Assembly (NCBI GenBank): GCA_001803045.1
Contig: MHAR01000024.1
Location: 1 to 39,877 of the forward strand
Length of the DNA: 39,877 nucleotides
From: Ignavibacteria bacterium RIFOXYB12_FULL_35_14
GTDB taxonomy: Bacteria > Bacteroidota > Ignavibacteria > Ignavibacteriales > Ignavibacteriaceae
Direction: 5' to 3'
This document shows, piece after piece, positions 12,801-31,157 of the stretch. Every line of letters starts with the position of its first letter. The stretch's first letter is position 1. The position numbers and the translations under genes are program-made. The notes beneath the pieces are model-generated. The model did no database searches and was not told the origin of the DNA. It worked only from the letters and a program-made list of their open reading frames with translations.

Positions 12801-12849
12801 AATCTCAGTTCAATTTCTTAGATTTGCATAAACAAATTTTGGAGTTCAC

Positions 12850-13185: not shown

Positions 13186-13192
13186 CATTTTA

Positions 13193-13239
13193 AACCTTTG
13201 AGGTTACACCGATTGGGAGTGGCGCAAACCTTGAAGGTT
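13193..13239. repeat. Two small AACCTT-AAGGTT palindromes
   Basis: AACCTTTGAGGTT (13193-13205) and AACCTTGAAGGTT (13227-13239) are short self-complementary units 34 bases apart just after gldC. The same core recurs as an inverted pair at 13618-13664. They look like a small interspersed intergenic repeat family. Confidence 0.5.
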
Positions 13240-13256
13240 ACGCAAATCGAGTTATT

Positions 13257-13280
13257 AGGGACACAGCACGCTGTGTCCCT
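13257..13280. repeat. Palindrome between gldC and the pspC-like gene
   Basis: AGGGACACAGC and GCTGTGTCCCT form an 11-bp stem with a two-base loop. It lies between convergent genes and could act as a bidirectional transcription terminator for gldC and the PspC gene. It is related in sequence to the palindrome at 12773-12800. Confidence 0.6.
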
Positions 13281-13287
13281 ACTTTAA

Positions 13288-13485
13288 TTAAACCATAGAG
13301 TTATTCGAATCCGGTGGCATTATTATCCAGAGAATAATGTAAATCAAAATTCCTGGGAATGCAGCGCTGAGAATTGAGACTATAACATATCCAACCCGAA
13401 CTAATGTAACATCCCAGTTTAGCCATTCAGCAATTCCCGCGCAAACTCCGGCAATCATAGAATTTTTAGATCTTTTTAAAGGCAT
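13288..13485 (-). CDS. PspC-domain membrane protein
   Basis: A 65-aa PspC-domain protein. The N-terminal half has the family signature KRSKNSMIAGVCAGIAEWLNWDVTLVRVGYVI, and one or two helices (about 34-58, FPGILIYIILWIIMPP) place it in the inner membrane. PspC proteins sense or respond to envelope stress; short stand-alone forms are common in Bacteroidetes-group genomes and their role is not known. I chose ATG at 13483-13485 because AAGGTGAG lies about seven bases upstream of it; an in-frame TTG two codons earlier is too close to that site. Confidence 0.85.
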   Translation of the reverse strand: MPLKRSKNSMIAGVCAGIAEWLNWDVTLVRVGYVIVSILSAAFPGILIYIILWIIMPPDSNNSMV

Positions 13486-13549
13486 AATCAACTCACCTTA
13501 ATTTTTATTTTCAGAAGCTTTCGATGGTTCATGGCAATTGTGTAATTAA

Positions 13550-13597
13550 ATATGCCAGATTTTGAAACGGGAGTTGCTTTGCAGAAATCTGGCATAT
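13550..13597. repeat. 13-bp inverted repeat
   Basis: ATATGCCAGATTT (13550-13562) and AAATCTGGCATAT (13585-13597) are perfect inverted copies around a 22-base loop. It lies in the gap between the NagZ-like gene and the PspC gene. No T-run follows. It is a palindromic intergenic repeat or a hairpin terminator for the NagZ operon. Confidence 0.55.
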
Positions 13598-13617
13598 CTG
13601 CAATTCCAGCATTTAGC

Positions 13618-13664
13618 AACCTTCGAGCTTGCTTGGTGGAATCACTGCCCTAACCTCGAAGGTT
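13618..13664. repeat. Inverted pair overlapping the end of the NagZ-like gene
   Basis: AACCTTCGAG (13618-13627) and CTCGAAGGTT (13655-13664) form a perfect 10-bp inverted repeat. The right arm lies inside the last codons of the NagZ-like gene (stop at 13650-13652), so the repeat may have replaced the original end of that gene. Confidence 0.5.
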
Positions 13665-15326: not shown

Positions 15327-16492
15327 ATTTTAAAAGGATAATAATTTTTTATTACTGCTCTATAAATGGCATCATGAATTAACGGTCGAACTTGAGATAG
15401 CTTGTTATTATTCCTTGTAGGGTAAACTCTGTTAGTTAGAAGAATAACAAATGTCTTTAATTCCGGATCAGTCCAAACAGAAGTCCCTGTGTAACCCGTA
15501 TGTCCCCATGAAAGTAAGCTAAAATATTTTCCTGCTGACGAACCTTCAGGCGACTTTGTATCCCAGCCCAGACCTCTCGAGCTTTGATCCGATTGTTTCT
15601 TTGTAAATAGCTCAATTGTTTCCGGCTTTATGTATTGTCTCCCTTGATAATTTCCTTCTCGCAAAATCATTTGGAGAAATTTAGCTAAATCATTTGCAGT
15701 TGAAAAAAGTCCTGCATGACCGGCAACTCCATTTAACATGTATGCTCGTTCATCATGAACTTCGCCTTGCAATTGACGCATTCGCCAAAAATCATCAAGT
15801 TCAGTCGGCATGCAATTATCTTTTGATTCTGTCGGCGGATTGTACATTGTGGAAGTCATTCCTAAAGGGGCAAACAAATTTTCCTCCAAGAATTTATCTA
15901 AAGATTGCCCAGTGATTCTTTCGATAACTTTTTGAAGGGTAATCATTCCAAGATCACTGTAAACATATTTGCTTCCGGGTCCTTGTTCGGGAGTTAAATT
16001 CATTATGTCATTTATTACTTCTTTGGCAGTTGAGTATACATCATAATACTTTTTGAAAGCAGCAAGTCCCGAATTATGAAGAAGCAAATTTTTTATTGTG
16101 ATATTTTCTTTTCCGTTATTGTTAAACTCAGGTAAGTACTTAATCACTTTATCATCTAAATTTAATTCCTCTCTATCAATTAGAATCATCGCAGCTGTAG
16201 TTGTACCTACAACTTTAGATACAGAAGCTAAATCAAAAATTGTGCTGGTAGTAACTTTAGGTGAAGCGGGATCGTAGGTATAAGTACCGTAAGCTTTTTC
16301 GTGTACGATCCTCATGTCTCTGGAAACAAGAAGAACTGCCCCAGGGAATGCTGAATCACTTATTGCTTTTTCAATTATCGAATCTACTTCTAAAAAGGAT
16401 ATATGATCGGAATTAGTTGGTTTAAAGAATGAAGAACATGATGCTATTACAAATAAATTTAGTATAAGTAAAATTAGGTACGCTTTTTTCAT
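15323..16492 (-). CDS. Class C beta-lactamase-like serine hydrolase, lipoprotein
   Basis: Serine hydrolase of the beta-lactamase/penicillin-binding-protein fold (389 aa). The signal is lipoprotein-type (IASC, Cys19). The SxxK motif is SVSK with Ser90 and Lys93, the second motif is YSD at 178-180 in place of class C YxN, and the third is HTG within WGHTGYTG. It probably acts on peptidoglycan stems or D-amino acid esters/peptides (EstB/AmpH-like); beta-lactam hydrolysis cannot be inferred. I chose ATG at 16490-16492 because AGGAG lies seven bases upstream and the lipoprotein signal begins there; a start ten codons earlier would overlap the AmpG stop. It is in an operon with ampG (two-base gap) and nagZ (four-base overlap), which supports a role in muropeptide recycling. 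Confidence 0.88.
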   Translation of the reverse strand: MKKAYLILLILNLFVIASCSSFFKPTNSDHISFLEVDSIIEKAISDSAFPGAVLLVSRDMRIVHEKAYGTYTYDPASPKVTTSTIFDLASVSKVVGTTTAAMILIDREELNLDDKVIKYLPEFNNNGKENITIKNLLLHNSGLAAFKKYYDVYSTAKEVINDIMNLTPEQGPGSKYVYSDLGMITLQKVIERITGQSLDKFLEENLFAPLGMTSTMYNPPTESKDNCMPTELDDFWRMRQLQGEVHDERAYMLNGVAGHAGLFSTANDLAKFLQMILREGNYQGRQYIKPETIELFTKKQSDQSSRGLGWDTKSPEGSSAGKYFSLLSWGHTGYTGTSVWTDPELKTFVILLTNRVYPTRNNNKLSQVRPLIHDAIYRAVIKNYYPFKM

Positions 16493-16493
16493 G

Positions 16494-18296
16494 TTACTTC
16501 TCCTCAACTTTCTTTTTCCCAAATTCAGAATCTATTTTCAACATTTTTGTTATGAAGAATCCGGGAATCATTGTAAGAAGAATCCATACAAAGAAATTGG
16601 GGTAGCCCAAGGCTTCTTGAATCATGCCGGCAAAAATACCAGGTATCATCATGCTTAAAGCCATGAAACCTGTGCAGATTGCATAGTGAGAAGTTTTGAA
16701 TTCACCTGCGGAAACGTAAATCATGTATAGCATGTAAGCAGTAAATCCAAAACCATAACCAAATTGTTCACCAGCTACACATAAGTTTATAATAATAAAA
16801 TTATCCGGTTGAGTAAAAGCCAGGTAAATGTAAAGAATATGAGGAATATTTATTGCTGCAAACATCCACCAAATCCATTTTTTTAATCCATCTCTTGAGG
16901 CAAGAAAGCCGCCCGTCAATCCACCAACAGTTAGAGCGATTATTCCAACAGTACCATAAACAAAACCAACTTCTCCGGTTGTCAAACCTAACCCGCCAAC
17001 TTCGCGTGGATCAAGCAAGAAAGGTGATGCGAGCTTAACTAATTGAGCTTCACCAAATCTATAGATAAGTAGAAATGTTATAGTGATGAGGATTTCTTTC
17101 TTCTTAAAGAACAGAGAGAAGGTTCTGATGAATTCTTTTCCAACACTTATTGATGCATCTTTAACTGCAGGTCCATCTTTTAAGGGATAGGGAAGTATGA
17201 AATTGTGATAAAGGAAAAATACAATAAACAAACCGGTTAAAATTAAAAAAGTCATTGACCAAGCCCACGGAATATCTCCTGAAATCGCTTTGAAAGCAGC
17301 AGATGTTTCGGTTTTTAATTTTGGATCGAGCTGCAAAATCGCATATGCAGGTTTATTCCAATTGGTTTTGTTGAAAACAAATCTTGTCCCTTCCAAAATT
17401 GAAATGCTTTTATCACCGCCGTCACGATCAAAATTGACAATGTAATCCTTATCCTCTTTTGGTTCTGATGAAAGTGCAATTGCTATTACAGAAATATTTC
17501 CAACTGATTTTGTGTAATCTGATGAATTTAATTTCAGTTCTGGGATCTTAGGTTGTTCTCCTTTTGTATTGTAAAATCCATTTTTGATATTTTTTGCTTG
17601 TACGAGGTTCACCATGGAATCAACCTCAGCTTTAGTTCTTTTATTGGTACTAAGATTTAGTGAACTTGAATTAGTCACAACTTTTAATTGATCATCCGGC
17701 GAAGCACTTGGGATATTCTCCTGAAAAATAATTCGTTCAATTTTGAGATTCGAGCTTGTTGTGACTTCAATCGTTGCAGGCGGCAACCCACTGTGGGTTT
17801 CAAAATATCCTGCAAGAATAATTAATAATCCCTGTCCGGTTATCATCGAAAGTCTGTAAAAAGTACTTCTTATTCCAACGAAGAATGCTTGATCGTGTTC
17901 AGATAAACCAAGCATATAAAAACCATCTGCAGCTATATCATGTGTTGCTGAACTGAATGCTAGCAGAAGAAAAAAAGCCAATGTGTATTGAAGAAAGCTC
18001 GGCAGGGGAATCATGAATGCAACGCCTGCGAGTCCTAATCCAACTATTAATTGCATTACAACTATCCATAACCTTTTCGTTTTGAATATATCTACGAAAG
18101 GGGACCAAAGTGGTTTTATCGCCCAAGGCAGATACAACAAACTTGTATAGAATGCAATGTCTGCATTTGAAATTCCCATTCGCTTGTACATGATGACAGA
18201 AACGAGCATTACAACCACATAGGGAATTCCTTGAGCGTAATAAAGTGTTGGAACCCATGCCCAGGGATTTCGAAAGGAAGGTTTGTTACCGAACAT
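16494..18296 (-). CDS. ampG: AmpG-like muropeptide permease with extra periplasmic domain
   Basis: Major facilitator superfamily permease of the AmpG type (600 aa), importing GlcNAc-anhydroMurNAc peptides. AmpG features are the N-terminal YYAQGIPY, LLYLPWAIKPLWSPFVD after helix 2, and SATHDIAADGFYML after helix 4. I count 12 helices: five at about 14-166, then seven at about 345-592. Between helices 5 and 6 lies an inserted hydrophilic region of about 175 residues (168-342), which should face the periplasm if the N-terminus is cytoplasmic. The usual AmpG is about 430-490 aa, so this insert explains the extra length. It is first in the ampG-serine hydrolase-nagZ operon. Function of the insert is unknown; capture of muropeptides or coupling to the lipoprotein partner is a guess. 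Confidence 0.85.
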   Translation of the reverse strand: MFGNKPSFRNPWAWVPTLYYAQGIPYVVVMLVSVIMYKRMGISNADIAFYTSLLYLPWAIKPLWSPFVDIFKTKRLWIVVMQLIVGLGLAGVAFMIPLPSFLQYTLAFFLLLAFSSATHDIAADGFYMLGLSEHDQAFFVGIRSTFYRLSMITGQGLLIILAGYFETHSGLPPATIEVTTSSNLKIERIIFQENIPSASPDDQLKVVTNSSSLNLSTNKRTKAEVDSMVNLVQAKNIKNGFYNTKGEQPKIPELKLNSSDYTKSVGNISVIAIALSSEPKEDKDYIVNFDRDGGDKSISILEGTRFVFNKTNWNKPAYAILQLDPKLKTETSAAFKAISGDIPWAWSMTFLILTGLFIVFFLYHNFILPYPLKDGPAVKDASISVGKEFIRTFSLFFKKKEILITITFLLIYRFGEAQLVKLASPFLLDPREVGGLGLTTGEVGFVYGTVGIIALTVGGLTGGFLASRDGLKKWIWWMFAAINIPHILYIYLAFTQPDNFIIINLCVAGEQFGYGFGFTAYMLYMIYVSAGEFKTSHYAICTGFMALSMMIPGIFAGMIQEALGYPNFFVWILLTMIPGFFITKMLKIDSEFGKKKVEEK

Positions 18297-18377
18297 ATTT
18301 ATCTCCGTGATACTACAGCAATTAATTAAACTGAATTAAGAATTAACTATTGAGATAAAAAACTATCGTCGCTATTT

Positions 18378-18489
18378 AATATGGCTAAAGCCAATTATCA
18401 GGTTGTCTCTTGGTCTGTTCACTGAAGTGAACGGGAATTCTGTTAGTTTGCCGAATAAGATTAAAAAATTATTTGGTTTTAGCCGCATT
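18378..18489. repeat. MITE-like palindromic element
   Basis: The ends AATATGGCTAAAGCC (18378-18392) and GGTTTTAGCCGCATT (18475-18489) are inverted copies matching at 12 of 15 positions. Inside is the hairpin GTTCACT-GA-AGTGAAC (18417-18432). There is no coding capacity. The 'GGCTAAAGCC ... TTCACTGAAGTGAA' combination is a layout I recall from intergenic repeats in this phylum group. It separates the kinase gene from the ampG operon. Confidence 0.6.
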
Positions 18490-18529
18490 TAGAATCAAAG
18501 ATCACCTATTCAAAATAATAGTTAAAAGA

Positions 18530-19453
18530 TCATACTTTAAGAATTTGCTTTGCCATCAATACAGCGCCCATTGCGGGAGAGTTTTCTACCTCTTTAACTA
18601 TAACATTGGGCAGATTCTCACTTACTTTTTTTTGTAAAGTGTTTGAATAGATATTTTTGTTCGTGATAATTCCGCCAATGAAAGCAATGTATAAAATTTT
18701 TTCCCTTAGCTTTGAGTGCATTGTAGAAATATGCAGAAGTAATTCATCCGTTTCATCTTCAATTATCTTTTTAGCTGTCTCATCCTTGTTTTCAGCTGCT
18801 TCAATAACCAGCGGTGCAACTGAGGCAATATCAAAATTGTTTTTATAAATTTCTGTAATTAAAATTTCCGATGAATCAATTTTATATTTTTCTTTTAATA
18901 AAATTGAAATAAAAGTTTTTTGCCCTCGTCCGTCAAACTCTTTTGAAACTGCTGCCAATCCTTTTTTTCCTAATGAATAACCGCTTCCCTCATCGCCCAA
19001 ATATCTGCCAAAACCACCAACACGATGAATGTTACCTTGTACATCTTTTCCAAACATGATTGATCCTGTTCCTGCAATTAAAATGCTTCCGGGTTTTCCT
19101 GAAAATGCTCCTTCTAAAGCGATACGGGCATCACTTTCGACTCTGAATAAATTCAACTTAGTTTTTTGTTTAGAAATATAGTTTGCAAATCCCTGTTCAA
19201 GTCTTTCGGCATCGGTTCTTCTGCCGGCTCCGGTTGTGCCAAGTAACACTATATCAATTTCCTCAATTGATATTTTTAACCTCTCTTCGCATGAGTTTAT
19301 AAGGTTGAAAAGAGTGGAAGAAACTGGTTCTAATCCCTGCACAAGAAAATTAGATGGTCCCCCGTAGCATTCATGTAAAATAGTGCCATGCAAATCTGTA
19401 AGTAAACAGTGGGTTTTTGTTCCTCCTCCATCAATGCCGATTATGTAGCTCAT
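18530..19453 (-). CDS. BadF/BadG-type ATPase, N-acetylhexosamine kinase-like
   Basis: ASKHA-fold sugar kinase of the BadF/BadG/BcrA/BcrD family (307 aa). The phosphate-1 loop is IGIDGGGTKTHCLLTD at the N-terminus, the second loop is SILIAGTGSIMFG at about 122-134, and the signature GRYLGDEGSGYSLGKKGL follows. These match N-acetylglucosamine kinases and MurK-type GlcNAc/MurNAc kinases of this family. Cytoplasmic. It lies 234 bases upstream of ampG on the same strand, so it could phosphorylate GlcNAc released by the NagZ-like enzyme. Activation of (R)-2-hydroxyglutaryl-CoA-type dehydratases is another activity of the superfamily, but the needed iron-sulfur cysteines are not evident. Confidence 0.85.
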   Translation of the reverse strand: MSYIIGIDGGGTKTHCLLTDLHGTILHECYGGPSNFLVQGLEPVSSTLFNLINSCEERLKISIEEIDIVLLGTTGAGRRTDAERLEQGFANYISKQKTKLNLFRVESDARIALEGAFSGKPGSILIAGTGSIMFGKDVQGNIHRVGGFGRYLGDEGSGYSLGKKGLAAVSKEFDGRGQKTFISILLKEKYKIDSSEILITEIYKNNFDIASVAPLVIEAAENKDETAKKIIEDETDELLLHISTMHSKLREKILYIAFIGGIITNKNIYSNTLQKKVSENLPNVIVKEVENSPAMGAVLMAKQILKV

Positions 19454-19602
19454 CCAGTAAGCAAATCTAATTTGTGGTGAATTAATAAGAAAAATAGAAA
19501 AAAAAGAACGAAGTTAAAAATATTTAATCATGTTTCCTGCATTTTTGAGTTCTCTTTTCAGGCAATTTTTTTTAATTTGACCGTCAATTATAAACAAACA
19601 AA

Positions 19603-21108
19603 ATGGATAAACTAGAAAAATATTTCGATCGGTATAGAAAAAATACGATTGGGTTTAATCAGACTTTTGTTTCACCGTATGGGGAGAAAAAAATAGTTTA
19701 TGCCGATTGGATTGCAAGCGGAAGATTGTATAAGCCAATCGAGAAAGCCATTAGCGAAGTATTTGGACCATTTGTTGGCAACACTCATTCTGAAGAAAGC
19801 ATCACCGGTACTTCGATGACTTTAGCATACCATCATTCACACGATATTATTAAGCAGCATGTTAATGCAAATAAAGATGATGTAATTGTTACTGCTGGAG
19901 CGGGAATGACGGGAATGGTGAATAAGTTTCAAAGAATTTTAGGTTTGAGAGTTGCCGAGCAGCTAAAGGATTTTTTAAAATTACCTGAAGAACTAAGGCC
20001 TGCCATTTTTATAACTCACATGGAACATCATTCAAATCAAACATCCTGGCTGGAAACAATTGCAGATGTAATTGTTATTAAACCAACTAACGAAGGTTTG
20101 GTTGATCTTAACGATTTAGAAAAACAATTAAAGAAGTACGCCAAGCGAAAGCTTAAAATTGGTTCTTTTACGGCATGTTCAAATGTAACCGGAATTAATA
20201 CCCCTTATCATGCAATGGCAAAGCTGATGCATGAGAATAATGGATTTTGTTTTGTCGATTTTGCTTGTTCGGCACCGTACGAAAAAATGGATATGCATCC
20301 GGCCGATTTACTTGAAAAGCTTGATGCAATATTTTTTTCTCCACATAAATTTCTTGGAGGTCCAGGGTCAGCCGGTGTATTGATCTTTGATTCTAAGTTG
20401 TACAAAAATCGTGTGCCCGATGATCCTGGTGGTGGAACTGTTGATTGGACAAATCCTTGGGGTCAGCATAAATTTGTCACTAATATTGAAGCACGAGAAG
20501 ACGGTGGAACTCCTGCTTTCCTTCAATCAATAAAAGCATCACTTAGCATTAAACTTAAAGAAGAAATGGGAGTTGAAAACATCCTGAAAAGAGAAAAACA
20601 TTTGGTGAAAATTGCATTCGAAGGATTGAGAAAAATACCCGGACTTCACATTCTTGCTGATAATGTTGAAGATAGACTTGGAGCAATTTCATTTTATGTT
20701 GATAAAATTCATTACAATCTATTGGTGAAAATATTGAATGATCGTTGCGGTATTCAAGTTCGAGGTGGCTGTTCCTGTGCCGGTACTTATGGTCATTATT
20801 TGTTGCACGTAACACCAAAAATGTCAAGACACATTACTGAAAAAATTAATCATGGTGATCTTTCAGAAAAACCGGGATGGGTTAGAATGTCGCTGCATCC
20901 AACCATGACTGATGATGAAGTTTATTTAATTGTTAATGCTGTGGCGGAAATAGTTAAAAATATTCAAAGCTGGAAAGCAGATTATGTTTATGATTTACAT
21001 AAGAATGAATACTATCATAAAAACGGTTATGAAAAGGAAAATATTTATAGGATGTTTGACCTTAATGGAGGTTTGAAATCTAAGAAGAAATATATCCAAA
21101 AAAATTAA
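19603..21108 (+). CDS. Class V aminotransferase, cysteine desulfurase-like
   Basis: PLP-dependent class V aminotransferase fold (501 aa). The PLP Schiff-base lysine is Lys249 in FFSPHKFLGGPGS, the cofactor-binding Asp is in CFVDFACSAP (Asp219), and TAGAGMTGMVNKF at about 97 is the phosphate-binding turn. A cysteine in RGGCSCAGTYGH (about 387-398) lies where desulfurases carry their catalytic loop Cys, so cysteine desulfurase or selenocysteine lyase chemistry is possible. It is about 100 residues longer than IscS/SufS and has no SufE/IscU neighbour. Substrate is unknown. It is divergent from the kinase gene and preceded by an A-rich leader with no Shine-Dalgarno sequence. Confidence 0.85.
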   Translation: MDKLEKYFDRYRKNTIGFNQTFVSPYGEKKIVYADWIASGRLYKPIEKAISEVFGPFVGNTHSEESITGTSMTLAYHHSHDIIKQHVNANKDDVIVTAGAGMTGMVNKFQRILGLRVAEQLKDFLKLPEELRPAIFITHMEHHSNQTSWLETIADVIVIKPTNEGLVDLNDLEKQLKKYAKRKLKIGSFTACSNVTGINTPYHAMAKLMHENNGFCFVDFACSAPYEKMDMHPADLLEKLDAIFFSPHKFLGGPGSAGVLIFDSKLYKNRVPDDPGGGTVDWTNPWGQHKFVTNIEAREDGGTPAFLQSIKASLSIKLKEEMGVENILKREKHLVKIAFEGLRKIPGLHILADNVEDRLGAISFYVDKIHYNLLVKILNDRCGIQVRGGCSCAGTYGHYLLHVTPKMSRHITEKINHGDLSEKPGWVRMSLHPTMTDDEVYLIVNAVAEIVKNIQSWKADYVYDLHKNEYYHKNGYEKENIYRMFDLNGGLKSKKKYIQKN

Positions 21109-21567: not shown

Positions 21568-23769
21568 ATGGTATTAATGAAAAATGTATTGTTCAATAAA
21601 AATAGGGGTGAATTAAAGGTTAGAAAAATTCACCTAGTTTATTTTTTAATTACAACGTTCTTACTTCTCTACTTTCCACCATCATTTCCACAATCAAATG
21701 AAGATTGCTTAACTTGTCATGAAGACAATACCCTAACAACTGAGAGAAAAGGAAAAGCAGTATCACTTTACGTGGATGTAAAGATACTTCAAAACTCTCC
21801 GCACAAAAAATTAACTTGCATATCATGCCATGTTGGTTTTGATGCTGAGGAAATTCCTCACAAAGAAAATATTCAAGCTATTAACTGTATGTCCTGCCAT
21901 AAGGATGCTCGGGTGAAGCACCAATTTCATCCGCAGATGAAGAATGCGAGCGGAGTAAATGGTCCGAAAGGAACATCATGTAGAACTTGTCATGGGACAC
22001 ATGATGTAATTCCACTCAAAGCTAAAAATTCAAAATGGTCTTCAGGTAATCTGGTCCAATCTTGCGGGCAATGCCATCAGGATGTGAAAGAAACATTTGT
22101 TACTTCAAAGCACTTTCAAGGATTATCTACAGGAGTTTTAGGTTCACCAAATTGTCTTTCGTGCCATCGGAACGCTTTAGTTACTCAAAAATCAGCGGTA
22201 GATTCTCTACAAAGAAAAATTGCACAAGAAAAATTATGTCTCTCATGCCATCTAGATAATGAAGAAATAATGTCTAAAACCGCACCGTCGGCTAAATTTA
22301 TTACCGCATATGAACTTAGTGTTCATGCGTCTGAAATTATGAATGGTAATCCTAAAGCTGCAACATGTATTGATTGCCATACCGCGCACGGAGTTGTTCC
22401 TGGCAATGAGCAAAATTCCACGGTAAATAAGTTTAATATTCCGAATACTTGTGCAAAATGTCATAATCAAATAGCTAAAGAGTATAAAGAAAGTGTTCAT
22501 GGGGTTTTTATTACTCGGGGAAATAAAGAAGCTCCTGTTTGTACCGATTGTCATGGGGAACATAATATTCTTCGTCACGATGATCCTAAAGCACCAGTGG
22601 CATTTAAAAACTTGTCTAGAGAGGTATGTTCTCCTTGTCATAGTTCAGTTAAGCTAGAAGCAAAATATGGTATAAATACCGATCGTTATAAAACTTTTTC
22701 GGATAGCTATCATGGTTTAGCAATTAAAGGCGGCTCATTAGAGGTTGCAAATTGTGCAAGTTGCCATGGTTCTCACAATATTAAGCCATCGAACGATCCA
22801 ACATCAATGGTAAATAAAGCGAATTTGGTTAAGACTTGCGGAACTTGTCATCCCGGTGCGAATATTAATTTCACAGTGGGAAAAATCCATGTTACTTTAG
22901 AAGAAAAAGACGAGCCGATTCTATATTGGATTGCCACAATGTACATTAGCTTAATCGTAGTTGTAATTGGCGGAATGTTTTTTCATAATGCAATAGACTT
23001 TGGTAAAAAAGCAAGAATAAAAAAGCTAAAACAAAAGGGGTATATCGAATCAGAAGAACATAGCCATTCACTTTATTTAAGAATGACTTTAAATGAAAGA
23101 ATTCAACATGCAACTTTAGCAGTTAGCTTTATATTGTTAGTTATAACCGGTTTTATGCTGCGATATCCTGATGCTTGGTGGGTAAGGCATATTCGGGATT
23201 TAAGCGAACATGCTTTTGATCTACGAAGCTTAATTCACAGAACTTCCGCAGTTGTTATGGTTATAGTTAGCTTATATCATATTTACTATGTCAGCTTCAC
23301 TTCAAGAGGAAGGGAGCTTATTAAAGATTTACTGCCAAGATATCAAGATATTCTGGATGCACTGGGCGTTGCTAAATTTAACCTCGGAATTTCAAAAGAA
23401 AAACCTATGCTTGATAGATTCAGCTATGTCGAAAAAGCCGAGTACTGGGCTTTAATCTGGGGCACTATTGTAATGACAGTTACAGGTTTTATTTTGTGGT
23501 TTGATAACACGTTCATTGGATTACTAACTAAGCTGGGATGGGATATAGCCAGAACCATTCATTACTATGAAGCATGGTTAGCATTCTTGTCGATTGTCGT
23601 TTGGCATTTCTATTTTATCATCTTTAATCCGGACGTTTACCCGATGAACACTGCATGGTTATCCGGAAAAATTTCTGAAGAAGAAATGATGCACGAACAT
23701 CCGAAGGAATTGGAAAGAATCAGAGCATCTATGGCGAAAAGCATCGATGAATCATCGAAGGAAAGCTAA
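21568..23769 (+). CDS. 13-haem cytochrome c fused to b-type cytochrome domain
   Basis: A 733-aa membrane protein. A signal helix (about 22-42) leads to a periplasmic region of about 45-445 with 13 CxxCH motifs (first CLTCH, last CGTCH), most in the alternating CxxCHG/T-H pattern of NrfA/Cyt c3-type multihaem chains. A membrane b-type cytochrome region follows (about 450-700), with one lead helix and then four helices carrying His pairs (IQHATLAVSF, LIHRTSAVVMVIVSLYHIYY, TIHYYEAWLAFLSIVVWHFYF). It probably oxidises or reduces menaquinone at the membrane and moves electrons along the haem chain. The plan resembles Geobacter CbcL (multihaem plus HydB-like cytochrome b), but that has fewer haems. 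It is followed directly by the 19-haem gene. ATG at 21577 is an alternative start. Confidence 0.85.
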   Translation: MVLMKNVLFNKNRGELKVRKIHLVYFLITTFLLLYFPPSFPQSNEDCLTCHEDNTLTTERKGKAVSLYVDVKILQNSPHKKLTCISCHVGFDAEEIPHKENIQAINCMSCHKDARVKHQFHPQMKNASGVNGPKGTSCRTCHGTHDVIPLKAKNSKWSSGNLVQSCGQCHQDVKETFVTSKHFQGLSTGVLGSPNCLSCHRNALVTQKSAVDSLQRKIAQEKLCLSCHLDNEEIMSKTAPSAKFITAYELSVHASEIMNGNPKAATCIDCHTAHGVVPGNEQNSTVNKFNIPNTCAKCHNQIAKEYKESVHGVFITRGNKEAPVCTDCHGEHNILRHDDPKAPVAFKNLSREVCSPCHSSVKLEAKYGINTDRYKTFSDSYHGLAIKGGSLEVANCASCHGSHNIKPSNDPTSMVNKANLVKTCGTCHPGANINFTVGKIHVTLEEKDEPILYWIATMYISLIVVVIGGMFFHNAIDFGKKARIKKLKQKGYIESEEHSHSLYLRMTLNERIQHATLAVSFILLVITGFMLRYPDAWWVRHIRDLSEHAFDLRSLIHRTSAVVMVIVSLYHIYYVSFTSRGRELIKDLLPRYQDILDALGVAKFNLGISKEKPMLDRFSYVEKAEYWALIWGTIVMTVTGFILWFDNTFIGLLTKLGWDIARTIHYYEAWLAFLSIVVWHFYFIIFNPDVYPMNTAWLSGKISEEEMMHEHPKELERIRASMAKSIDESSKES

Positions 23770-23770
23770 T

Positions 23771-25765
23771 TTGAAAATGATCAAGGCATTTGTTTTCCTT
23801 CTTACATTTGGAGTGCTTTTAGTCGGCAGAGCATTTCCCCAGGAAAATAGTGACTGTATGACGTGTCACGAAGATAAAACGTTAAAAGGCACTCGTGGTG
23901 GAAGAACAATCTCAGTTTTTATTAATGAAAAAATTGTTTCCTCTTCTGTTCATTCAGAAGTAAGCTGTATTCAATGCCATGTCGATTTGGAGGGTTCTGA
24001 CTTTCCTCATGCTGCGAGTGTTAAAAGAGCAGCATGCAATTCCTGTCACGAAGACATACAGAAATTATACGATGGTAGTTTACATTCAAGAGCATTCAAT
24101 CGTGGCGATAGACTTGCCCCGATTTGCCAGGATTGTCATGGTTCGCATGAAATTATCTCTGTAAAAAATATCAAATCGAAAGTCGCACCAATTAACGTTC
24201 CCTATCTATGCGGGCAATGTCATAAAGAAGGATCTCCTGTTCAGCTTCAAAGAAATATTTCTCAAACGCATATTCTCGAAAACTATTCTGAAAGTATTCA
24301 TGGCGAAGGTTTGATGAAGAAGGGGCTTATTGTTACAGCAACTTGTGCATCTTGTCATACCGCTCATGAAATTTTACCTCATACAGATTCTCGATCATCA
24401 ATCGCACGTAAAAACATTGCAGGTACTTGTGCTAAATGCCATGCTGAAATTGAACTAGTTCATAGAAAAGTTATTAAGGGTACTCTATGGGAAAAAGAAG
24501 CAGCCATATTGCCTGCGTGTGTCGATTGTCATCAACCGCATAAAGCAAGACGTGTTTTCTACGACCAGGGAATGGCCGATGCTGATTGTTTAACATGCCA
24601 CGAGAAGAAGGAACTAAAATCTTCGGAGGACGGGCGTTCTCTATTTGTAAATTATTCTGAAATAAAAAATTCGAAGCATACTAATATTACTTGCAGCCAA
24701 TGCCACTCAGGGGTTAAACCCTCTCATACTAGACCCTGTGATGAACTTACAACTTTAGTTGACTGCTCTTCCTGTCATACAGCTGTTCAAGAAGATTATC
24801 AAATAAGTGTACATGGGATTCTTGCATCTAAAAATGATCCCAATGCTCCAACTTGCAAGGAATGTCATTCAAATCATAATATTCTCGGTAAGTTGAATCC
24901 TAAGTCTCCGATATTTCCTATTAACATTCCAAATCTTTGCGGTAATTGTCATAAAGAAGGCAAAAAAGCAGCTGTTCGTTACACTGGAACTGAGAAGGAA
25001 ATTATCCAAAATTATACTGAGAGTATTCACGGTAAAGGATTATTAAAAAGCGGTTTGACGGTTACTGCGACTTGTACAGATTGTCATACTGCGCATAGAG
25101 AACTCCCACATATTGATCCATCGTCAAGTATAAATCCTACTAACATTCCAGCTACTTGTGGTAATTGCCATCATGGGATTCAAGAACAATTTGAGAAAAG
25201 CATTCATTCAACATTAGTTTCTAAATCGGGTAAAAAACTTCCAACTTGCGAAAACTGTCATAGTGCTCACCAAATTATTAGAGCGGATTCGGAAGGATTT
25301 AAACAAACAATTATGATTCAATGCGGCAATTGTCATGAAGAGATTGCTAAAACTTATTTTGAAACTTACCATGGAAAAGTATCGCAATTAGGTTATACGA
25401 AAACAGCTAAATGTTATGATTGCCACGGTGCGCATGATATTCTTCCCATCGAAAATCCGATTTCTCATCTGCACAGAAAAAATGTAGTTGTAACATGCCA
25501 GAAATGTCATCCTAGTGCAAATAGACAATTTGCCGGTTATTTCACTCATGCAACTCATCATGATCCCCATAAATATCCTTGGTTATTCTGGACTTTCTGG
25601 GGAATGACCGGATTGCTTGTAGGAACCTTTGTTATTGCGGGTTTACATACTTTGTTATGGCTGCCGCGTTCACTTCAATGGCGAAGAGAGCTTAAACGAA
25701 GACAACTGGAAAAAAATATCAACAATCTTGAGTCGACGAAAGATGGAAATAACACAAACGGCTAA
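23771..25765 (+). CDS. 19-haem c-type cytochrome with C-terminal membrane anchor
   Basis: A 664-aa multihaem cytochrome with a signal peptide (MIKAFVFLLTFGVLLVGRAFPQ) and 19 CxxCH motifs between CMTCH and CQKCH. One transmembrane helix (about residues 602-627, WTFWGMTGLLVGTFVIAGLHTLL) is followed by a basic tail, so the haem domain lies in the periplasm. The haem region is a tandem duplication: the segment from CMTCH through CVDCH and the segment from CLTCH onward share order and wording, for example NYSESIHGEG... and NYTESIHGKG... each followed by VTATC-x-x-CHTAH. I chose TTG at 23771-23773 with AAGGAAA six bases upstream; ATG at 23777 and an overlapping ATG at 23747 are alternatives. The next gene, a b-type cytochrome, overlaps it by 23 bases and is the likely membrane partner. 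Confidence 0.87.
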   Translation: MKMIKAFVFLLTFGVLLVGRAFPQENSDCMTCHEDKTLKGTRGGRTISVFINEKIVSSSVHSEVSCIQCHVDLEGSDFPHAASVKRAACNSCHEDIQKLYDGSLHSRAFNRGDRLAPICQDCHGSHEIISVKNIKSKVAPINVPYLCGQCHKEGSPVQLQRNISQTHILENYSESIHGEGLMKKGLIVTATCASCHTAHEILPHTDSRSSIARKNIAGTCAKCHAEIELVHRKVIKGTLWEKEAAILPACVDCHQPHKARRVFYDQGMADADCLTCHEKKELKSSEDGRSLFVNYSEIKNSKHTNITCSQCHSGVKPSHTRPCDELTTLVDCSSCHTAVQEDYQISVHGILASKNDPNAPTCKECHSNHNILGKLNPKSPIFPINIPNLCGNCHKEGKKAAVRYTGTEKEIIQNYTESIHGKGLLKSGLTVTATCTDCHTAHRELPHIDPSSSINPTNIPATCGNCHHGIQEQFEKSIHSTLVSKSGKKLPTCENCHSAHQIIRADSEGFKQTIMIQCGNCHEEIAKTYFETYHGKVSQLGYTKTAKCYDCHGAHDILPIENPISHLHRKNVVVTCQKCHPSANRQFAGYFTHATHHDPHKYPWLFWTFWGMTGLLVGTFVIAGLHTLLWLPRSLQWRRELKRRQLEKNINNLESTKDGNNTNG

Positions 25766-26612
25766 AACAGATGATATTGCTAAAAGAGAATTGCAAGTCG
25801 TCAGATTCACACGATTGAATCGTACTTTACACGTGTTCATGATTGTCAGTTTCATCAGTCTTGCTCTCACTGGAATGTCATTGAAGTTTTCATATACCGG
25901 ATGGGCAGTGTTTTTATCGCGTCTTTTCGGCGGATTTGAATCGGCAGGTTACATTCACAGGTTCGCTGCTGTTGTGATGGTGTCTGTTTTTATTATCCAT
26001 CTTGTTGATTTGATAAGAATGCGGAAGAAAGAAGCATTGACCTGGAAAGAATTGATCCTCGGTGAGAATTCGCTTCTGTTCAATAAGAAAGATTTAAGAG
26101 ATTTTATTGCTTCAATTAAATGGTTTATCGGAAAAGGTGAGAGACCGGAATATGGAAGATGGACTTACTGGGAAAAATTCGACTACATCGCAGTGTTCTG
26201 GGGAATTTTTATAATTGGTTTCACTGGTCTTACGCTTTGGTTTCCCGAGTTCTTCACTCAGTTCATGCCAGGTTCGGTATTAAACGTTACAACCATCATT
26301 CATAGTGATGAAGCACTTTTAGCAACAGGTTTTATTTTTACAATTCATTTCTTTAATACACACTTACGACCTGAAAAATTTCCAATGGATATTGTAATCT
26401 TTACCGGTCGAATTCCGCTTGAAGAATTTAAATTAGATAGACCAAAGGAATACAAAGAATTGGTCGAAAAGGGTGAGCTTGAAAAATATTTAGCTGAACC
26501 TTATCCTGAGATTGTTATTAAAACTATCCGTATTTTTGGCTGGACTGCACTCTCAATCGGATTTAGCATTATCCTCTGGATAATTTACGCTATGCTATTT
26601 GCATATCGTTAA
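25743..26612 (+). CDS. b-type cytochrome subunit, partner of the 19-haem protein
   Basis: A 289-aa membrane protein with five predicted helices: ~28-46, ~66-89, ~148-167, ~184-207 and ~264-287. Histidines suited to b-haem ligation lie in LNRTLHVFMIVSF, YIHRFAAVVMVSVFIIHLVDL and IIHSDEALLATGFIFTIHFFNTH. It is like the FdnI/CbcL-type gamma subunits. It is clearly paralogous to the C-terminal part of the 21568 protein, including the tail motif PEKFPMDIVIFTGRIPLEEF versus PDVYPMNTAWLSGKISEEEM. I chose ATG at 25743 because sequence upstream in this frame overlaps the end of the 19-haem gene and is not protein-like. Overlap with the preceding gene suggests translational coupling. Confidence 0.85.
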   Translation: MEITQTAKTDDIAKRELQVVRFTRLNRTLHVFMIVSFISLALTGMSLKFSYTGWAVFLSRLFGGFESAGYIHRFAAVVMVSVFIIHLVDLIRMRKKEALTWKELILGENSLLFNKKDLRDFIASIKWFIGKGERPEYGRWTYWEKFDYIAVFWGIFIIGFTGLTLWFPEFFTQFMPGSVLNVTTIIHSDEALLATGFIFTIHFFNTHLRPEKFPMDIVIFTGRIPLEEFKLDRPKEYKELVEKGELEKYLAEPYPEIVIKTIRIFGWTALSIGFSIILWIIYAMLFAYR

Positions 26613-26657
26613 TAGTTTACGTTTATTAATTGAATTATTTTTCCTAACTTCTAGTCG

Positions 26658-28151
26658 ATGAAAAACAAATTACCATCATCTTTTTACAATCCTACATCTT
26701 TAGCTGGTGCTGCAATCGCAGCAATTAGCTTTGGTCTGATTGTTTTTCTCTTTTTACTTGAACTTCTTGGAACAAAGCAAAAACCATATATGGGTATTAT
26801 TGCTTTTGTAATCCTGCCATCAATTTTAATTGGCGGGGTGTTTTTGGTAATTTTTGGCATATATCGAGAGCACAAAAGGGAAAAGCATGGTAAGCAAAGA
26901 GAAAAAAAATTTCCAACAATTGATCTCAATAATCCTAAACATAGAGCTGCATTTACATTTTTTTCGATCGGCACAATTCTTCTTCTCCTCTTTAGTGCTT
27001 TTGGTAGTTATCAGGCATATGAGTTTACGGATTCAGATGAATTTTGTGGAGAAATTTGTCATGAAGTGATGGAACCGGAATATACGGCCTATCAGTTCTC
27101 ACCACATGCAAAAGTTGGATGCGTTCAATGTCATATAGGATCGGGAGCAGAATGGTATGTGCGTTCAAAGTTTTCCGGTGCTTATCAAGTTTATTCTGTA
27201 CTTTTCAATAAATACTCAAAACCAATACCTACTCCTATCGAAAATTTGAGACCGGCTCAGGAAACATGTGAACAATGTCATTGGCCAAAGCATTTCTTTA
27301 ATGAAAAGCAATTAGTAAATACATATTACCTCTCCGATGAGAATAATACGGAATGGACTATTGATCTATTAATAAAAATTGGCGGTGGAAATGTTGAAGC
27401 TGGTCCTACCTCAGGAATTCATTGGCATATGAATATAGCTCACGAGGTGAACTATGTTACCTTAGATTCACTTCGAATGATTATACCGTGGGTTCAATCA
27501 AAAAGTGCTGATGGAAAAGTAACAATCTATAGAAACACTGAACTAAATATTTCAGATTCACAAGTAGAAAAACTTGAGAAGAGAAGAATGGATTGCATTG
27601 ATTGCCACAATCGTCCTTCTCACATCTATCACCCTCCAGCCAGATCGGTTAATCACCTAATTAAGCTGGGATGGATTGATAAAAGGTTACCGTACATAAA
27701 AAGTCTTTCTGTTCATGCATTAGAAAATGAGTACACAAGTAAACAAGTTGCTTTAGATAGCATAAAATCAACAATCTTAGATTTCTACAGTGCGAATTAT
27801 CCTCAGGTATTTATTGAAAAAAAAACGAGCATAAATAAAGCTGTGGAGGAAGTTCAAAAGATTTATTCAAGAAATTATTTTCCTTCGATGGGGGTTAGTT
27901 GGCGAAAGTTTCCGGAACATATTGGTCACTTGTATGCACCGGGATGTTTCAGGTGTCATGATGGTAAACACGTGAACGAGGAGGGCAAAGTTCTTTCAAG
28001 GGATTGCAATGTTTGTCATACGATTCTTGCACAAAAATTTGAAAAAGATGAATTACGATTATCACTTGGCGGTATTGATTACCAGCATCCGGTTGATGTC
28101 GGTAACGCTTGGAAGGAAATAAATTGCAGCGAGTGTCACGAAAAAAAATAA
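26658..28151 (+). CDS. Seven-haem NapC/NirT-type inner-membrane cytochrome (ImcH-like)
   Basis: A 497-aa protein with three N-terminal transmembrane helices (~15-37, ~45-68, ~97-118) followed by a NapC/NirT-like periplasmic haem domain. The first haem site is CX3CH (Cys130, Cys134, His135) with Met138 as candidate axial ligand. Six CxxCH motifs follow: CVQCH, CEQCH, CIDCH, CFRCH, CNVCH and CSECH, the last at the extreme C-terminus. NapC/NirT proteins oxidise menaquinol and pass electrons to periplasmic carriers. Seven haems and about 55 kDa match Geobacter sulfurreducens ImcH, which feeds high-potential extracellular electron transfer. This homology rests on remembered architecture, not on an alignment. 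It is immediately followed by the Rieske/cytochrome b pair (14-base gap). Confidence 0.85.
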   Translation: MKNKLPSSFYNPTSLAGAAIAAISFGLIVFLFLLELLGTKQKPYMGIIAFVILPSILIGGVFLVIFGIYREHKREKHGKQREKKFPTIDLNNPKHRAAFTFFSIGTILLLLFSAFGSYQAYEFTDSDEFCGEICHEVMEPEYTAYQFSPHAKVGCVQCHIGSGAEWYVRSKFSGAYQVYSVLFNKYSKPIPTPIENLRPAQETCEQCHWPKHFFNEKQLVNTYYLSDENNTEWTIDLLIKIGGGNVEAGPTSGIHWHMNIAHEVNYVTLDSLRMIIPWVQSKSADGKVTIYRNTELNISDSQVEKLEKRRMDCIDCHNRPSHIYHPPARSVNHLIKLGWIDKRLPYIKSLSVHALENEYTSKQVALDSIKSTILDFYSANYPQVFIEKKTSINKAVEEVQKIYSRNYFPSMGVSWRKFPEHIGHLYAPGCFRCHDGKHVNEEGKVLSRDCNVCHTILAQKFEKDELRLSLGGIDYQHPVDVGNAWKEINCSECHEKK

Positions 28152-28165
28152 ATTTATAAATCAAT

Positions 28166-28621
28166 ATGAATAATTCATCTTCATCACAGAAACAAAACAA
28201 TAGACGGGATTTCCTAAAGTATCTCTTAACAGGCGGATTACTCGGTTTTGCGTCCGCTGTGATTTATCCTCTCATTGCGTATTTAAAACCTCCTAAACAA
28301 AGGGAAGTCGAAGTATCCAGTGTTAAGGTTGGAAAACTAAGTGAAATTGAAAAGAATTCCGGAAGAATAATTAGGTTTGGGAATAAACCGGTGATACTAG
28401 TGAGAACCGCCGCTGGTGATCTTCGTGCTTTCTCGGCAACTTGTACGCATTTGGATTGTACAGTTCAATTTAAAAGTGATCAGAGTATTCTGTGGTGTGC
28501 ATGCCATAATGGTAAATACGATCTTAATGGAAGAAATATTTCTGGACCGCCACCAAGACCTTTAGATTCATTTCGAGTGGTTATTCAGGGTGAAGAAGTT
28601 CTAATTTCAAAAAATGTATAA
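28166..28621 (+). CDS. Rieske [2Fe-2S] protein of a bc-type complex
   Basis: A 151-aa Rieske subunit with a Tat-type N-terminus ([14 protein letters not shown]) and one membrane helix (~18-40). Box 1 is CTHLDC (Cys93, His95, Cys98) and box 2 is CACHNG (Cys111, Cys113, His114). Cluster ligands are Cys93, His95, Cys111 and His114, and Cys98-Cys113 form the usual disulfide. The residue two after the last His, normally Ser in high-potential Rieske proteins (CHGS), is Gly116 here, while the nearby Tyr (Tyr118) is retained. Loss of that Ser hydrogen bond is known to lower the potential, which suits menaquinol. It transfers electrons from quinol to the c-type partner, here probably the 11-haem protein. 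The cytochrome b gene follows eight bases later. Confidence 0.92.
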
Positions 28622-28629
28622 ATATTATT

Positions 28630-29706
28630 ATGAATATTATTAAAAATCTTTATAATTGGATTGATGAAAGAGTTAAGCTCGAAGATCTTGTGAATTTTCT
28701 TGGTAAGAAATATGTACCCGTGCATCGTAATTCTGTGTGGTATTACTTTGGGGGAGTAAGCTTATTCTTTTTTATCATCCAGGTTGTTACTGGTATACTC
28801 TTGCTGTTTTATTATAAAGGTAGTGCTGATTTGGCTTTTGAGAGCATTCAGTTCATTATGTCCAAAGTTCAATTTGGGTGGTTGATTCGTTCTATTCATT
28901 CTTGGGCAGCCAATCTTTTTATCCTAGCTGCATTTATTCACATGTTTAGCGTTTACTTTGAAAAATCGTATCGCAAACCTCGAGAGATAACATGGGTGAC
29001 AGGGATGCTGATGTTTTTTCTTGCTTTAGGGTTTGGTTTCAGTGGTTATTTGCTTCCGTGGAATGAACTAGCTTTTTTCGCTACAAAAGTTGGAACTGAT
29101 ATTGCCGGTGCTGTTCCATTAATTGGTGAAACTCTCAAAATTTTTCTAAGAGGCGGAGAAGAAGTTACGGGTGCAACTCTATCAAGACTATTTGGTTTCC
29201 ATGTAGCTTTGCTGCCAGGAATTTTCACTGCTCTGCTTACTATACATCTCTTATTGGTTCAGCGACAAGGAATGAGCGAACCATTAAGAGTAGAAGCACT
29301 TAAGCAATCAGAAAAAAAGACAATGCCTTTCTTTCCAAATTTCCTCTTGCGCGACTTACTTCTTTGGTTATTAATCCTAAATGTGTTGGCAATTCTTGCC
29401 GTTTTTTTCCCTTCCGAATTAGGTCGGAAAGCTGATCTCTTTGCATCTGCACCAGCTGGTATCAAACCGGAGTGGTACTTTCTGTTTATGTTTCAAACTC
29501 TAAAATATATCCCAGCACATCTATTAATTTTTGAAGGAGAAGTTGTTGGGATTCTGCTTTTTATGGTTGCAGGTGTACTTTGGTTGTTAGTTCCTTTTTG
29601 GGATACTAAAAGCTCCAAAGGCCAGCAAAACCGATTGATTAATTATCTCGGTTTATTTGCTGTCATCTTTATTATAGTTCTCACGATTCTTGGATGGATT
29701 GCATGA
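28630..29706 (+). CDS. Cytochrome b of a Rieske/b complex (b6-type ligand spacing, fused subunit IV)
   Basis: A 358-aa cytochrome b subunit. Four N-terminal helices carry the four haem b ligands: His90 and His104 (13 residues between) and His191 and His206 (14 residues between). The 14-residue spacing in the fourth helix is the cytochrome b6-type pattern. The Qo-site PEWY motif ([15 protein letters not shown] at about 285) and three more helices follow, equal to subunit IV fused to b6. It oxidises menaquinol, with the Rieske protein and an adjacent cytochrome as acceptors. Its TGA overlaps the ATG of the 11-haem gene (ATGA), so the three genes are translationally coupled. No cysteine for a covalent haem ci is evident near the N-terminus. 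Confidence 0.92.
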
Positions 29707-31157
29707 AATCATTTTTATCGTTTCTTCTACTAATCAGCTTCTTTGGGATTTATTCAAATGCGTCCGCAACTGAAGATCAATGTTTTGTTTGTCATGAATC
29801 TATTGGCGGTGCAGAAGTTGAACTCTATAAAAAAGATATTCATTTTAAAAAAGGAATATCTTGCAGCGGATGCCATGGCGGGGATAGTACTTCGGAAGAT
29901 ATGGAAACGGCAATGAGCAAAGCTGATGGATTTATTGGCGTACCAAAAGGTGCTAATGTTTCGAAAGTATGTACAAAATGTCACTCTAATGCACAGATTA
30001 TGATTAAACAATATAATTCAGCACTGCCTTGGAACCAAGAAGCTTTACTGGCTCAAAGCGTGCATGGTAACCTTTCAGTTTCTGGGAAAGAACAAATTGT
30101 TAGTTGTACAACTTGTCATAATACACATGGTATCGTCAATGTAAAAGATCCTTCATCACCAGTTTACCCTGTAAACCTTCCGAAAACCTGCGCCAAATGT
30201 CATTCTGATGCTAAATATATGCGCACATATAATCCTGCATTACCTGTTGATCAATTGGATAAATATCGTACGAGCAAACATGGCATCTTAAATGCAAAAG
30301 GTGATCCAAAAGTTGCTGAATGTACAAGTTGTCATGGAAGTCATGAAATTCGATCCTCAAAAGATGTCAAATCGAAAGTATATGCTATCAATCTTCCCAA
30401 AACATGTTCTACATGCCATTCGAATTCTAATTATATGCAGGGGTATAATATTCCTTCTGATCAATTTGATAAATATTCCGGCAGTGTACATGGTAAATTG
30501 CTTTTAGAGAAGAATGACTTTAATGCGCCAGCCTGCAATGATTGTCATGGAAATCATTCTGCAACTCCTCCAGGTATTGAATCTATTTCTAAGGTATGTG
30601 GTACTTGCCATGCATTAAATGCTGAATTATTTTCCTCAAGTCCGCACAAGAAGGCCTTTGATCAAAAGAGACTTCCAGAGTGTGAAACTTGTCATGGTGA
30701 CCATGCGATTATTACAGCTACTGATAAATTGTTAGGTGTTCAAAATGGTGCTGTGTGTAAATGGTGTCATGGGGATAAACCCGAATCGAAAGCATTTCAA
30801 ACTGCTAAATTTATGAGAGAGCTGAGAGATAGTCTTGTAAACGAAGAGGAAAACGCATTACTTCTAATCAATGATGCAGAACAAAAAGGTATAGAAATCT
30901 CAGATGTAAAATTCAAATTAAGAGATGCAAAACAAGCTTTGTTTGAATCTCGGACGATGGTCCATTCCTTTGATCAATCCAAATTTTCAGAGACTATCGA
31001 TAAGGGGTTGAATGTTACGACATCGGTAACACAAGATATGTCTAATGCAATCGATGATTATTATTTCAGACGTTGGGGATTAGGTGTTTCATCGCTTATT
31101 ATAACGATATTAGCAATGTCATTGTTTTTTTATATTAAAAGGATTGAAAAAAGCTAA
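29703..31157 (+). CDS. 11-haem c-type cytochrome of the Rieske/b complex
   Basis: A 484-aa protein with a signal peptide ([22 protein letters not shown]) and 11 CxxCH motifs (CFVCH, CSGCH, CTKCH, CTTCH, CAKCH, CTSCH, CSTCH, CNDCH, CGTCH, CETCH, CKWCH) between about residues 27 and 360. A helical, charged region (about 370-455) follows, and then one transmembrane helix (about 459-479) with basic tail, so it is anchored in the inner membrane with haems outside. Repeats such as [20 protein letters not shown] and [20 protein letters not shown] show internal duplication. It overlaps the cytochrome b gene by four bases and occupies the place of cytochrome c1/f, so it is the likely electron exit of this complex. 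ATG at 29694 is an alternative start but less natural. Confidence 0.87.

Follow-up and report, generated by a model that had tools for sequence, protein, structure and literature searches.

Fusion of a 13-haem cytochrome to a b-type cytochrome

The window, i.e., the whole analyzed stretch of 39,877 nucleotides from Ignavibacteria bacterium RIFOXYB12_FULL_35_14, contains an open reading frame that appears to combine a long chain of c-type haems with a membrane-bound b-type cytochrome. This raises the question of whether the fusion is a genuine protein, whether it exchanges electrons with quinone, and in which direction these would flow. The fusion protein (FUS) and its parts are as follows:

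21568..23769, + strand: FUS, 13-haem c-type cytochrome and membrane b-type cytochrome in one polypeptide (ORF, motif count, Pfam, conservation)
21619..21690, + strand: N-terminal hydrophobic segment, residues ~18-41 (hydropathy scan; helix 13-35 in a poor full-length model)
21706..22851, + strand: c-type domain with 13 CxxCH, residues 47-428 (conserved non-motif His extend to residue 441)
22921..22992, + strand: TM0, linker or anchor helix, residues ~452-475, ending in the invariant H473 at 22984-22986 (resembles the tail helix of FdnH)
23080..23631, + strand: FdnI-like b domain, residues 505-688, with His 514, 557, 571, 665, and 680 (Pfam, profile, model)
23425..23445, + strand: YxEKxxY, residues 620-626, at the start of TM III (aligns with FdnI residues ~111-117)

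The ORF starts with ATG and is read without interruption for 733 aa. Its 13 CxxCH motifs begin at residues 47, 84, 107, 138, 166, 196, 224, 267, 295, 325, 354, 396, and 424, while 2000 shuffles of the same residues averaged 0.05 and never exceeded 2. The 13-motif fused type (FUS13) was compared in 33 distinct sequences, including that of the window and one cut by a contig end (L009). The His of each of the 13 motifs was invariant (33/33), and 13 further His of the c part were conserved as well: residues 79, 98, 145, 182, 253, 274, 311, 332, 382, 403, and 441 in 33/33 and residues 118 and 121 in 32/33. One conserved extra His per c haem would fit a set of distal ligands, compatible with all-bis-His ligation as in CbcL. 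The N-terminal hydrophobic segment is likely a Sec signal or an anchor, and the c-type domain would lie on the periplasmic side. Searches with NCBIfam returned matches below the cut-offs, including DmsE-type decahaem cytochromes and formate dehydrogenase gamma. The full-length AlphaFold2 model from seven sequences (pLDDT 43, pTM 0.29) was too poor for haem placement.

An assembly or gene-calling artefact joining two genes could be suspected, as the adjoining relative is encoded by two genes and genome G342 has a split pair of the FUS type. Such an artefact is virtually impossible and already refuted by the conservation of the ORF: the fusion is kept as one reading frame in all 33 distinct FUS13 sequences, and fused forms with 16, 17, or 18 motifs, together with a contig-cut form of 15, occur in several families. 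A single stop codon was present in three FUS13 matches (G011:C107, G017, and G071), the ORF of G017 as read being intact with 711 aa. The original prediction of 13 CxxCH sites followed by a membrane b-type cytochrome in one protein was thus borne out at 21568-23769 by the ORF, the motif count, the Pfam match, and the 33 FUS13 reading frames.

Relatives of FUS were found beyond this genome. A contig scan with short exact patterns yielded seven loci, five from Ignavibacteria or a subgroup, one from Bacteroidetes, and one uncultured. Some FUS match occurred at 0.001 in 36 out of 41 genomes (including that of the window), at 1e-60 in 67 out of 80 genomes of the window's family, and at 1e-50 in 44 out of 296 sampled genomes of the phylum, with all three counts taking in other haem-number types and fragments.

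The b domain and its histidine pairs

FUS residues 506-688 matched PF01292, the prokaryotic cytochrome b561 family, at 1.8e-15 with 57.6 bits (cut-off 30.1), and two b haems are expected in this domain. Simple hydropathy and the models predicted five helices for the membrane half in addition to the separate N-terminal segment. Among the membrane His of FUS13, residues 473, 514, 557, 571, and 665 were present in 33/33 sequences and residue 680 in 32/32. A profile built from 22 b parts of both fused and split proteins matched FdnI of E. coli formate dehydrogenase N (1kqf_C) at 3.4e-11, and in this alignment FdnI residues 18, 57, 155, and 169 fell on FUS H514, H557, H665, and H680, respectively. 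The corresponding H18, H57, H155, and H169 are what we take to be the haem ligands of FdnI. The H557/H665 pair would therefore lie on the periplasmic side and the H514/H680 pair on the cytoplasmic side, as far as the alignment indicates. Since the four ligand positions fall on conserved His, the b-type part does not lack the two facing His pairs that had been proposed for it, with the sides of the membrane assigned by inference. H571 follows H557 by 14 residues and has no His counterpart in FdnI; the spacing is as in cytochrome b6, the match to which was non-significant (E 0.056).

The AlphaFold2 model of the b part alone reached a pLDDT of 79. Its best PDB match was again 1kqf_C (E 1.6e-6, TM 0.80 to the target), with a Z of 15.8 and an rmsd of 3.1 over 209 residues, and the next family followed at a Z of 10.6. 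The FUS b part is a relative, not a member, of the FdnI and hydrogenase b subunits TIGR01583 and TIGR02125, with scores of 47.4 of 115.85 bits and 29.7 of 121.5 bits, respectively. The YxEKxxY segment was found in all 82 b parts, those of the 33 FUS13 sequences included, and it aligns with a stretch of FdnI that is presumably the region of part of its cytoplasmic-side quinone site (residues ~111-117). The segment is thus a candidate for the cytoplasmic-side quinone pocket of FUS.

The joining helix and the presence of a b partner

A His in the TM0 window was present in 53/53 fused FUS proteins, not counting L068 (the contig-cut FUS15) or the proteins of L015. It also occurred in 24/24 rows labelled MHC19 and in 4/4 fused MHC19 proteins; two of the 24 rows have 23 motifs and two others 18, the latter including the split FUS-type c half of G342. 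Among 13-haem proteins without a fused b domain (MHC13), the His was present in 2/2 with an adjacent separate short b561-like gene but in none of the 5 for which the available stretches show no such gene. These five b-less proteins belong to genera g3, g10, and g38 of a single family, so that the absence of the His may go back to one event, and some MHC13 rows are long branches, which bears on whether the b-less proteins lost a b domain. The TM0-type His was also missing from all three distinct MHC11 proteins, partners of the Rieske/cytochrome b set; the other rows among the MHC11 tails were different proteins (L015 and L056) or a repeat of L010 (L069).

In the PDB chain of FdnH, the C-terminal hydrophobic stretch ends with a His at a like place. 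Judged by sequence position, TM0 may therefore be the counterpart of the C-terminal anchor of FdnH, with a His that would serve the b module, and given this equivalence the multihaem domain would replace the iron-sulfur domain of FdnH. FUS shares with formate dehydrogenase N (FdnH and FdnI, 1kqf) the FdnI fold, the four haem-ligand positions, and the joining helix with its terminal His. In contrast to FdnH/FdnI, the carrier domain of FUS is a 13-haem cytochrome instead of an iron-sulfur protein and is covalently joined to the b part. No formate dehydrogenase was recognized in the FUS row.

Comparison with the CbcL family

The original prediction had named Geobacter CbcL as the nearest plan, and the comparison was supported by the same c-then-b layout and the FdnI-type b domain with His pairs. 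FUS resembles by description the CbcL/MtrH/MtoC proteins of Geobacter, Rhodoferax, and Fe(II) oxidizers, which combine an N-terminal multihaem c part with a C-terminal HydC/FdnI-like di-haem b part. According to main-text passages of PMC6295460, this family spans 3-23 CX2CH motifs and 15 phyla, with two homologues in Ignavibacteriae, and mostly has six TM helices in the C-terminal half (five in four homologues and four in one). CbcL itself, in passages of PMC9129911, carries a di-haem b domain and nine c haems with bis-His ligation, and the use of low-potential acceptors depends on it. FUS differs from CbcL by 13 c haems instead of nine, by five predicted helices in the membrane half instead of six, and by a gene that adjoins an ImcH-type gene in these bacteria. 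That the number of haems sets FUS apart was overstated and was rejected as a novelty, as 13 lies within the range of 3-23 given in PMC6295460. FUS is probably a new member of CbcL/MtrH/MtoC that works like CbcL, the latter being compared by description only.

The split relative of FUS

Directly downstream of FUS lies a distant paralogue in two pieces:

23747..25765, + strand: MHC19, 19 CxxCH and a His in the C-terminal TM, forming the c half of the split FUS relative (motif count, sequence comparison)
25743..26612, + strand: cytb561, FdnI-like b cytochrome encoded on its own, forming the b half of the split relative (start codon ATG at 25743; TTG at 25629 in the listed ORF)

In four relatives, the two pieces form a single ORF of 935-994 aa. 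A quick tree of b parts with long branches, in which these four fused proteins were not included, placed the FUS forms in one polypeptide (with 13, 16, or 18 motifs, plus the contig-cut 15) opposite 17 split b proteins across a branch with an SH-aLRT of 100. From this division it follows that the b module is kept while the length of the haem chain varies. A recent duplication and fusion of the adjoining split pair was considered as the origin of FUS and is not favoured, as the branch with an SH-aLRT of 100 parts the fused from the split proteins.

MHC19 and cytb561 resemble CbcBA and the split CbcL-like pairs described for Carboxydocella in passages of PMC6085454, which likewise consist of a one-TM multihaem protein and a separate di-haem b protein. 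In contrast to CbcBA, FUS is one polypeptide, and the split pair of the window has 19 haems and is fused in the four relatives. A further likeness is to Mco of ANME-2a/b archaea, in which a b cytochrome is paired with a cytochrome of 7-11 haems and which was proposed as a methanophenazine:cytochrome c oxidoreductase in main-text passages of PMC9012536. These passages also set Mco apart from FUS, as it is archaeal, encoded by separate genes, linked to methanophenazine, and equipped with a VhtC-type b subunit.

Other combinations were observed at more distant places. Locus L081 (genome G218, 2174-5233), outside the class, holds an ORF of 1019 aa with 17 CxxCH fused to a FUS-type b domain; it adjoins a split pair, the contig-cut c half of which shows 18 motifs. 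The distant locus L015 (6923-12117) holds a split 6-haem/b pair as well as a fused protein of 895 aa with 9 CxxCH, in which c haems flank the b domain on both sides.

Gene order of FUS and ImcH

Downstream of the split pair, the window encodes an ImcH-type protein:

26658..28151, + strand: ImcH-type quinol dehydrogenase, 497 aa, 3 TM, CX3CH and 6 CxxCH, NapC/NrfH-like (motifs, hydropathy, published definition)

For Geobacter and associated homologues, ImcH is defined in passages of PMC6295460 by 495-519 aa, three N-terminal TM segments, an adjoining atypical CX3CH, and six CX2CH. The protein of the window shows all of these with 497 aa, three hydrophobic segments, CGEICH, and six CxxCH. The combination of CX3CH and six CxxCH occurred in 38 of the 39 ImcH rows, the 39th being a different 17-haem protein.

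Gene order was compared in the window's family between 62 FUS13 and 5 MHC13 places and 66 ImcH places, with distances taken between match ends. In all 53 cases with both genes on one contig, ImcH lay downstream on the same strand, at a distance of -7 to 216 bases in 34 cases and of 2.9-3.2 kb in 19, the latter spacing matching the size of the MHC19/cytb561 cassette. Of the 14 cases without ImcH on the FUS13 or MHC13 contig, nine had it on another contig, and five genomes had none: FUS13 genomes G047, G048, G053, G083, and G090, in which no ImcH match was found at 1e-60. Conversely, ImcH occurred without a counted FUS13 or MHC13 in G043, G063, G089, and G093, with a FUS fragment in G063. The count leaves out the FUS18-type matches (G003, G010, G041, G092, and G094), both G095 matches, fragments in G059, G063, and G070, the second matches in G085 and G087 (MHC19 plus b), and one partial ImcH match (G003:C167), and the 62 FUS13 places include fragments in G059, G070, and two in G079.

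Outside the family, 14 full-length FUS13 cases were compared with ImcH: in 11 it followed FUS on the same strand at no more than 4.4 kb, in one at 7.1 kb, and in the remaining two it was on a different contig. The FUS13-ImcH order is thus common to several families of one class. For the 16- and 18-haem FUS, the haem number of which was judged from the match pattern where sequences were not fetched, 21 genomes outside the family also had ImcH: on different contigs in 15, within 7 kb on opposite strands in 5, and far apart in 1. Passages of PMC6295460 describe a frequent association of imcH with genes for c cytochromes and the presence of both CbcL and ImcH in most of the Geobacter species studied.

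This order could mean that the 13-haem part mainly serves ImcH in quinol oxidation on the periplasmic side, with the b domain as an accessory second entry or exit. The same-strand arrangement in 53/53 same-contig cases points this way, as do five of these genomes in which the 13-haem protein adjoining ImcH has no b domain. Such a division of roles is nevertheless unlikely: the b domain and its His are kept in the 33 FUS13 sequences and are therefore not dispensable in those lineages, and some genomes have one gene without the other.

The FUS row and its flanks

The genes that follow ImcH complete a row that extends from FUS to MHC11:

28166..28621, + strand: Rieske [2Fe-2S] protein (family match)
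28630..29706, + strand: cytochrome b, b6-type and subunit IV-like in one ORF (family match)
29694..31157, + strand: MHC11, 11 CxxCH and a C-terminal TM without His (motif count, hydropathy)

The row genes downstream of FUS share its strand, and some of their ends overlap. MHC11 is probably the partner of the Rieske/cytochrome b set. The row of FUS13, MHC19, cytb561, ImcH, Rieske, cytochrome b, and MHC11 was present in the window, L010, L024, L037, L077, L079, L080, and L082, in some with inserts and in some with the last gene cut by the contig end. The full row is not universal, as many other loci are cut off by the contig end or have no Rieske set. A published account of the row from FUS to MHC11 was not found in main-text passages of PMC6295460, PMC9012536, PMC5317091, PMC12307469, PMC7399161, PMC4245776, PMC9129911, PMC6085454, and PMC6896113.

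Past a gap of 439 bases, a second set of genes follows:

31597-32760, + strand: four class-I cytochrome c domains (past the 439-base gap)
32810-33358, + strand: QrcA-like 5-haem protein (120.4 of the QrcA cut-off of 180 bits)
33376-35832, + strand: molybdopterin protein (297.4 of the QrcB cut-off of 440 bits)
35848-36531, + strand: FeS protein (284.6 of the QrcC cut-off of 400 bits)
36531-37865, + strand: NrfD (40.1 of the QrcD cut-off of 570 bits)
37934-38482, + strand: MHC182, 4-haem cytochrome c554-type (motif count, family match)

It is doubtful that the set at 31597-38482 belongs to the FUS row. Only homologues of MHC182 recurred near FUS homologues, and no homologue of the molybdopterin protein lay beside any other FUS in the loci read. 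The Qrc-like set at 32810-37865 remained under all four curated Qrc cut-offs, and the molybdopterin protein scored 317 bits with ArrA, 311 with PhsA, and 297 with QrcB. The Qrc-like set is therefore not counted as a fifth module of the row, on account of the low Qrc scores, the higher ArrA and PhsA scores, the gap, and the missing recurrence beside FUS. Nor do these scores support the view that no reductase lies there, as the molybdopterin protein is equally near to arsenate and thiosulfate reductases.

Upstream of FUS (13650-21108), genes resembling those of cell-wall recycling were observed by eye, i.e., a glycosidase, a beta-lactamase-like protein, an AmpG-like transporter, and an N-acetylglucosamine kinase-like protein. 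The same stretch encodes a SufS-like aminotransferase, which recurs upstream of FUS or MHC13 in L009, L025, L034, and L064.

Further electron-transfer genes were seen by eye elsewhere in the genome. An alternative complex III-like set (5-haem, 1032-aa, and NrfD-like proteins) followed by cytochrome oxidase genes was located in L097 (C8:73000-92000, ORFs 8492-19000), which suggests a separate aerobic route for quinol in this organism. L098 (C15:10000-26000, 7430-10588) holds another Rieske/cytochrome b pair and, after it, an 8-haem protein of 537 aa, near molybdenum-cofactor-like genes. Multihaem proteins with 8, 7, and 9 CxxCH and 600, 584, and 808 aa, respectively, were found in L096 (C95:1-15000, 4952-8747) and L095 (9076-11502); their C-terminal tails look by eye like those of type IX secretion, so that they are possibly cell-surface cytochromes.

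Electron path and direction

FUS is probably a CbcL-type, quinone-linked inner-membrane oxidoreductase that connects menaquinone to a 13-haem periplasmic chain via two b haems. It is best read as a quinol:cytochrome c oxidoreductase working reversibly, and as one of the row's four quinone-linked modules. In the path that we infer, from the use of menaquinone and the membrane sides to the direction and the periplasmic acceptor, the b domain would exchange two electrons with menaquinone close to the H514/H680 haem on the cytoplasmic side. The electrons would cross the membrane to the periplasmic-side b haem (H557/H665), enter the C-terminal end of the 13-haem bis-His chain, and be handed to periplasmic carriers or adjoining multihaem proteins. 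Quinol oxidation with electrons moving outward is fairly, not strongly, favoured over the reverse. By the example of FdnI, outward quinol oxidation through FUS would cost membrane potential.

In the reverse direction, electrons from a periplasmic or extracellular donor would pass along the haem chain to quinone at the cytoplasmic side and build proton motive force as in FdnI. FdnI is a quinone reductase, and it is FdnI that the b part of FUS matches. The Qrc-like set downstream, itself below the cut-offs, would point against the outward direction if it is a menaquinone reductase. The published family also includes MtoC of Fe(II) oxidizers, and passages of PMC6295460 state that no feature was found that separates the electron directions. 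Against this stand the conserved ImcH-type neighbour, a type implicated so far only in quinol oxidation in the same passages, and the family searches, which recognized no donor oxidase in the row at 21568-31157. A FUS working in reverse is possible and rather unlikely.

As an exit across the outer membrane, a conduit of the MtrB/PioB type was rejected: PF11854 matched nothing in the genome, so that an outer-membrane route of this type is not established. OmbB-like porin-cytochrome clusters have been reported for Ignavibacteria in passages of PMC7399161. An NrfA-type reductase was rejected as well, as only two weak PF02335 matches occurred in the genome, in the 808-aa 9-haem protein and in MHC11.

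The less ordinary aspect of FUS is that its row holds other enzymes that apparently do the same job. In Geobacter, CbcL, CbcBA, and ImcH are quinol oxidases for different redox potentials according to passages of PMC12307469. In the window, a split pair resembling CbcBA lies alongside homologues of the CbcL and ImcH plans, and the FUS-ImcH genes are followed by a Rieske/cytochrome b set in eight loci. FUS and ImcH, with or without MHC19/cytb561, might form one quinol:cytochrome c complex, in which quinone sites on opposite sides of the membrane, the periplasmic one in ImcH and the cytoplasmic one in FUS, share the 13-haem chain. The cell would then shift between proton-neutral and potential-linked quinol oxidation with the redox potential, and the invariant His of TM0 would contribute to the quinone or haem site on the cytoplasmic side. 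This single complex is speculative and, on present evidence, improbable. Given the conserved FUS13-ImcH order and the adjoining quinone-linked sets, it is testable whether these are alternative routes or one machine. Occurring in fused, split, and b-less versions, the 13- and 19-haem proteins form a natural series that provides a ready dissection of how a haem chain plugs into a quinone-reactive membrane module.
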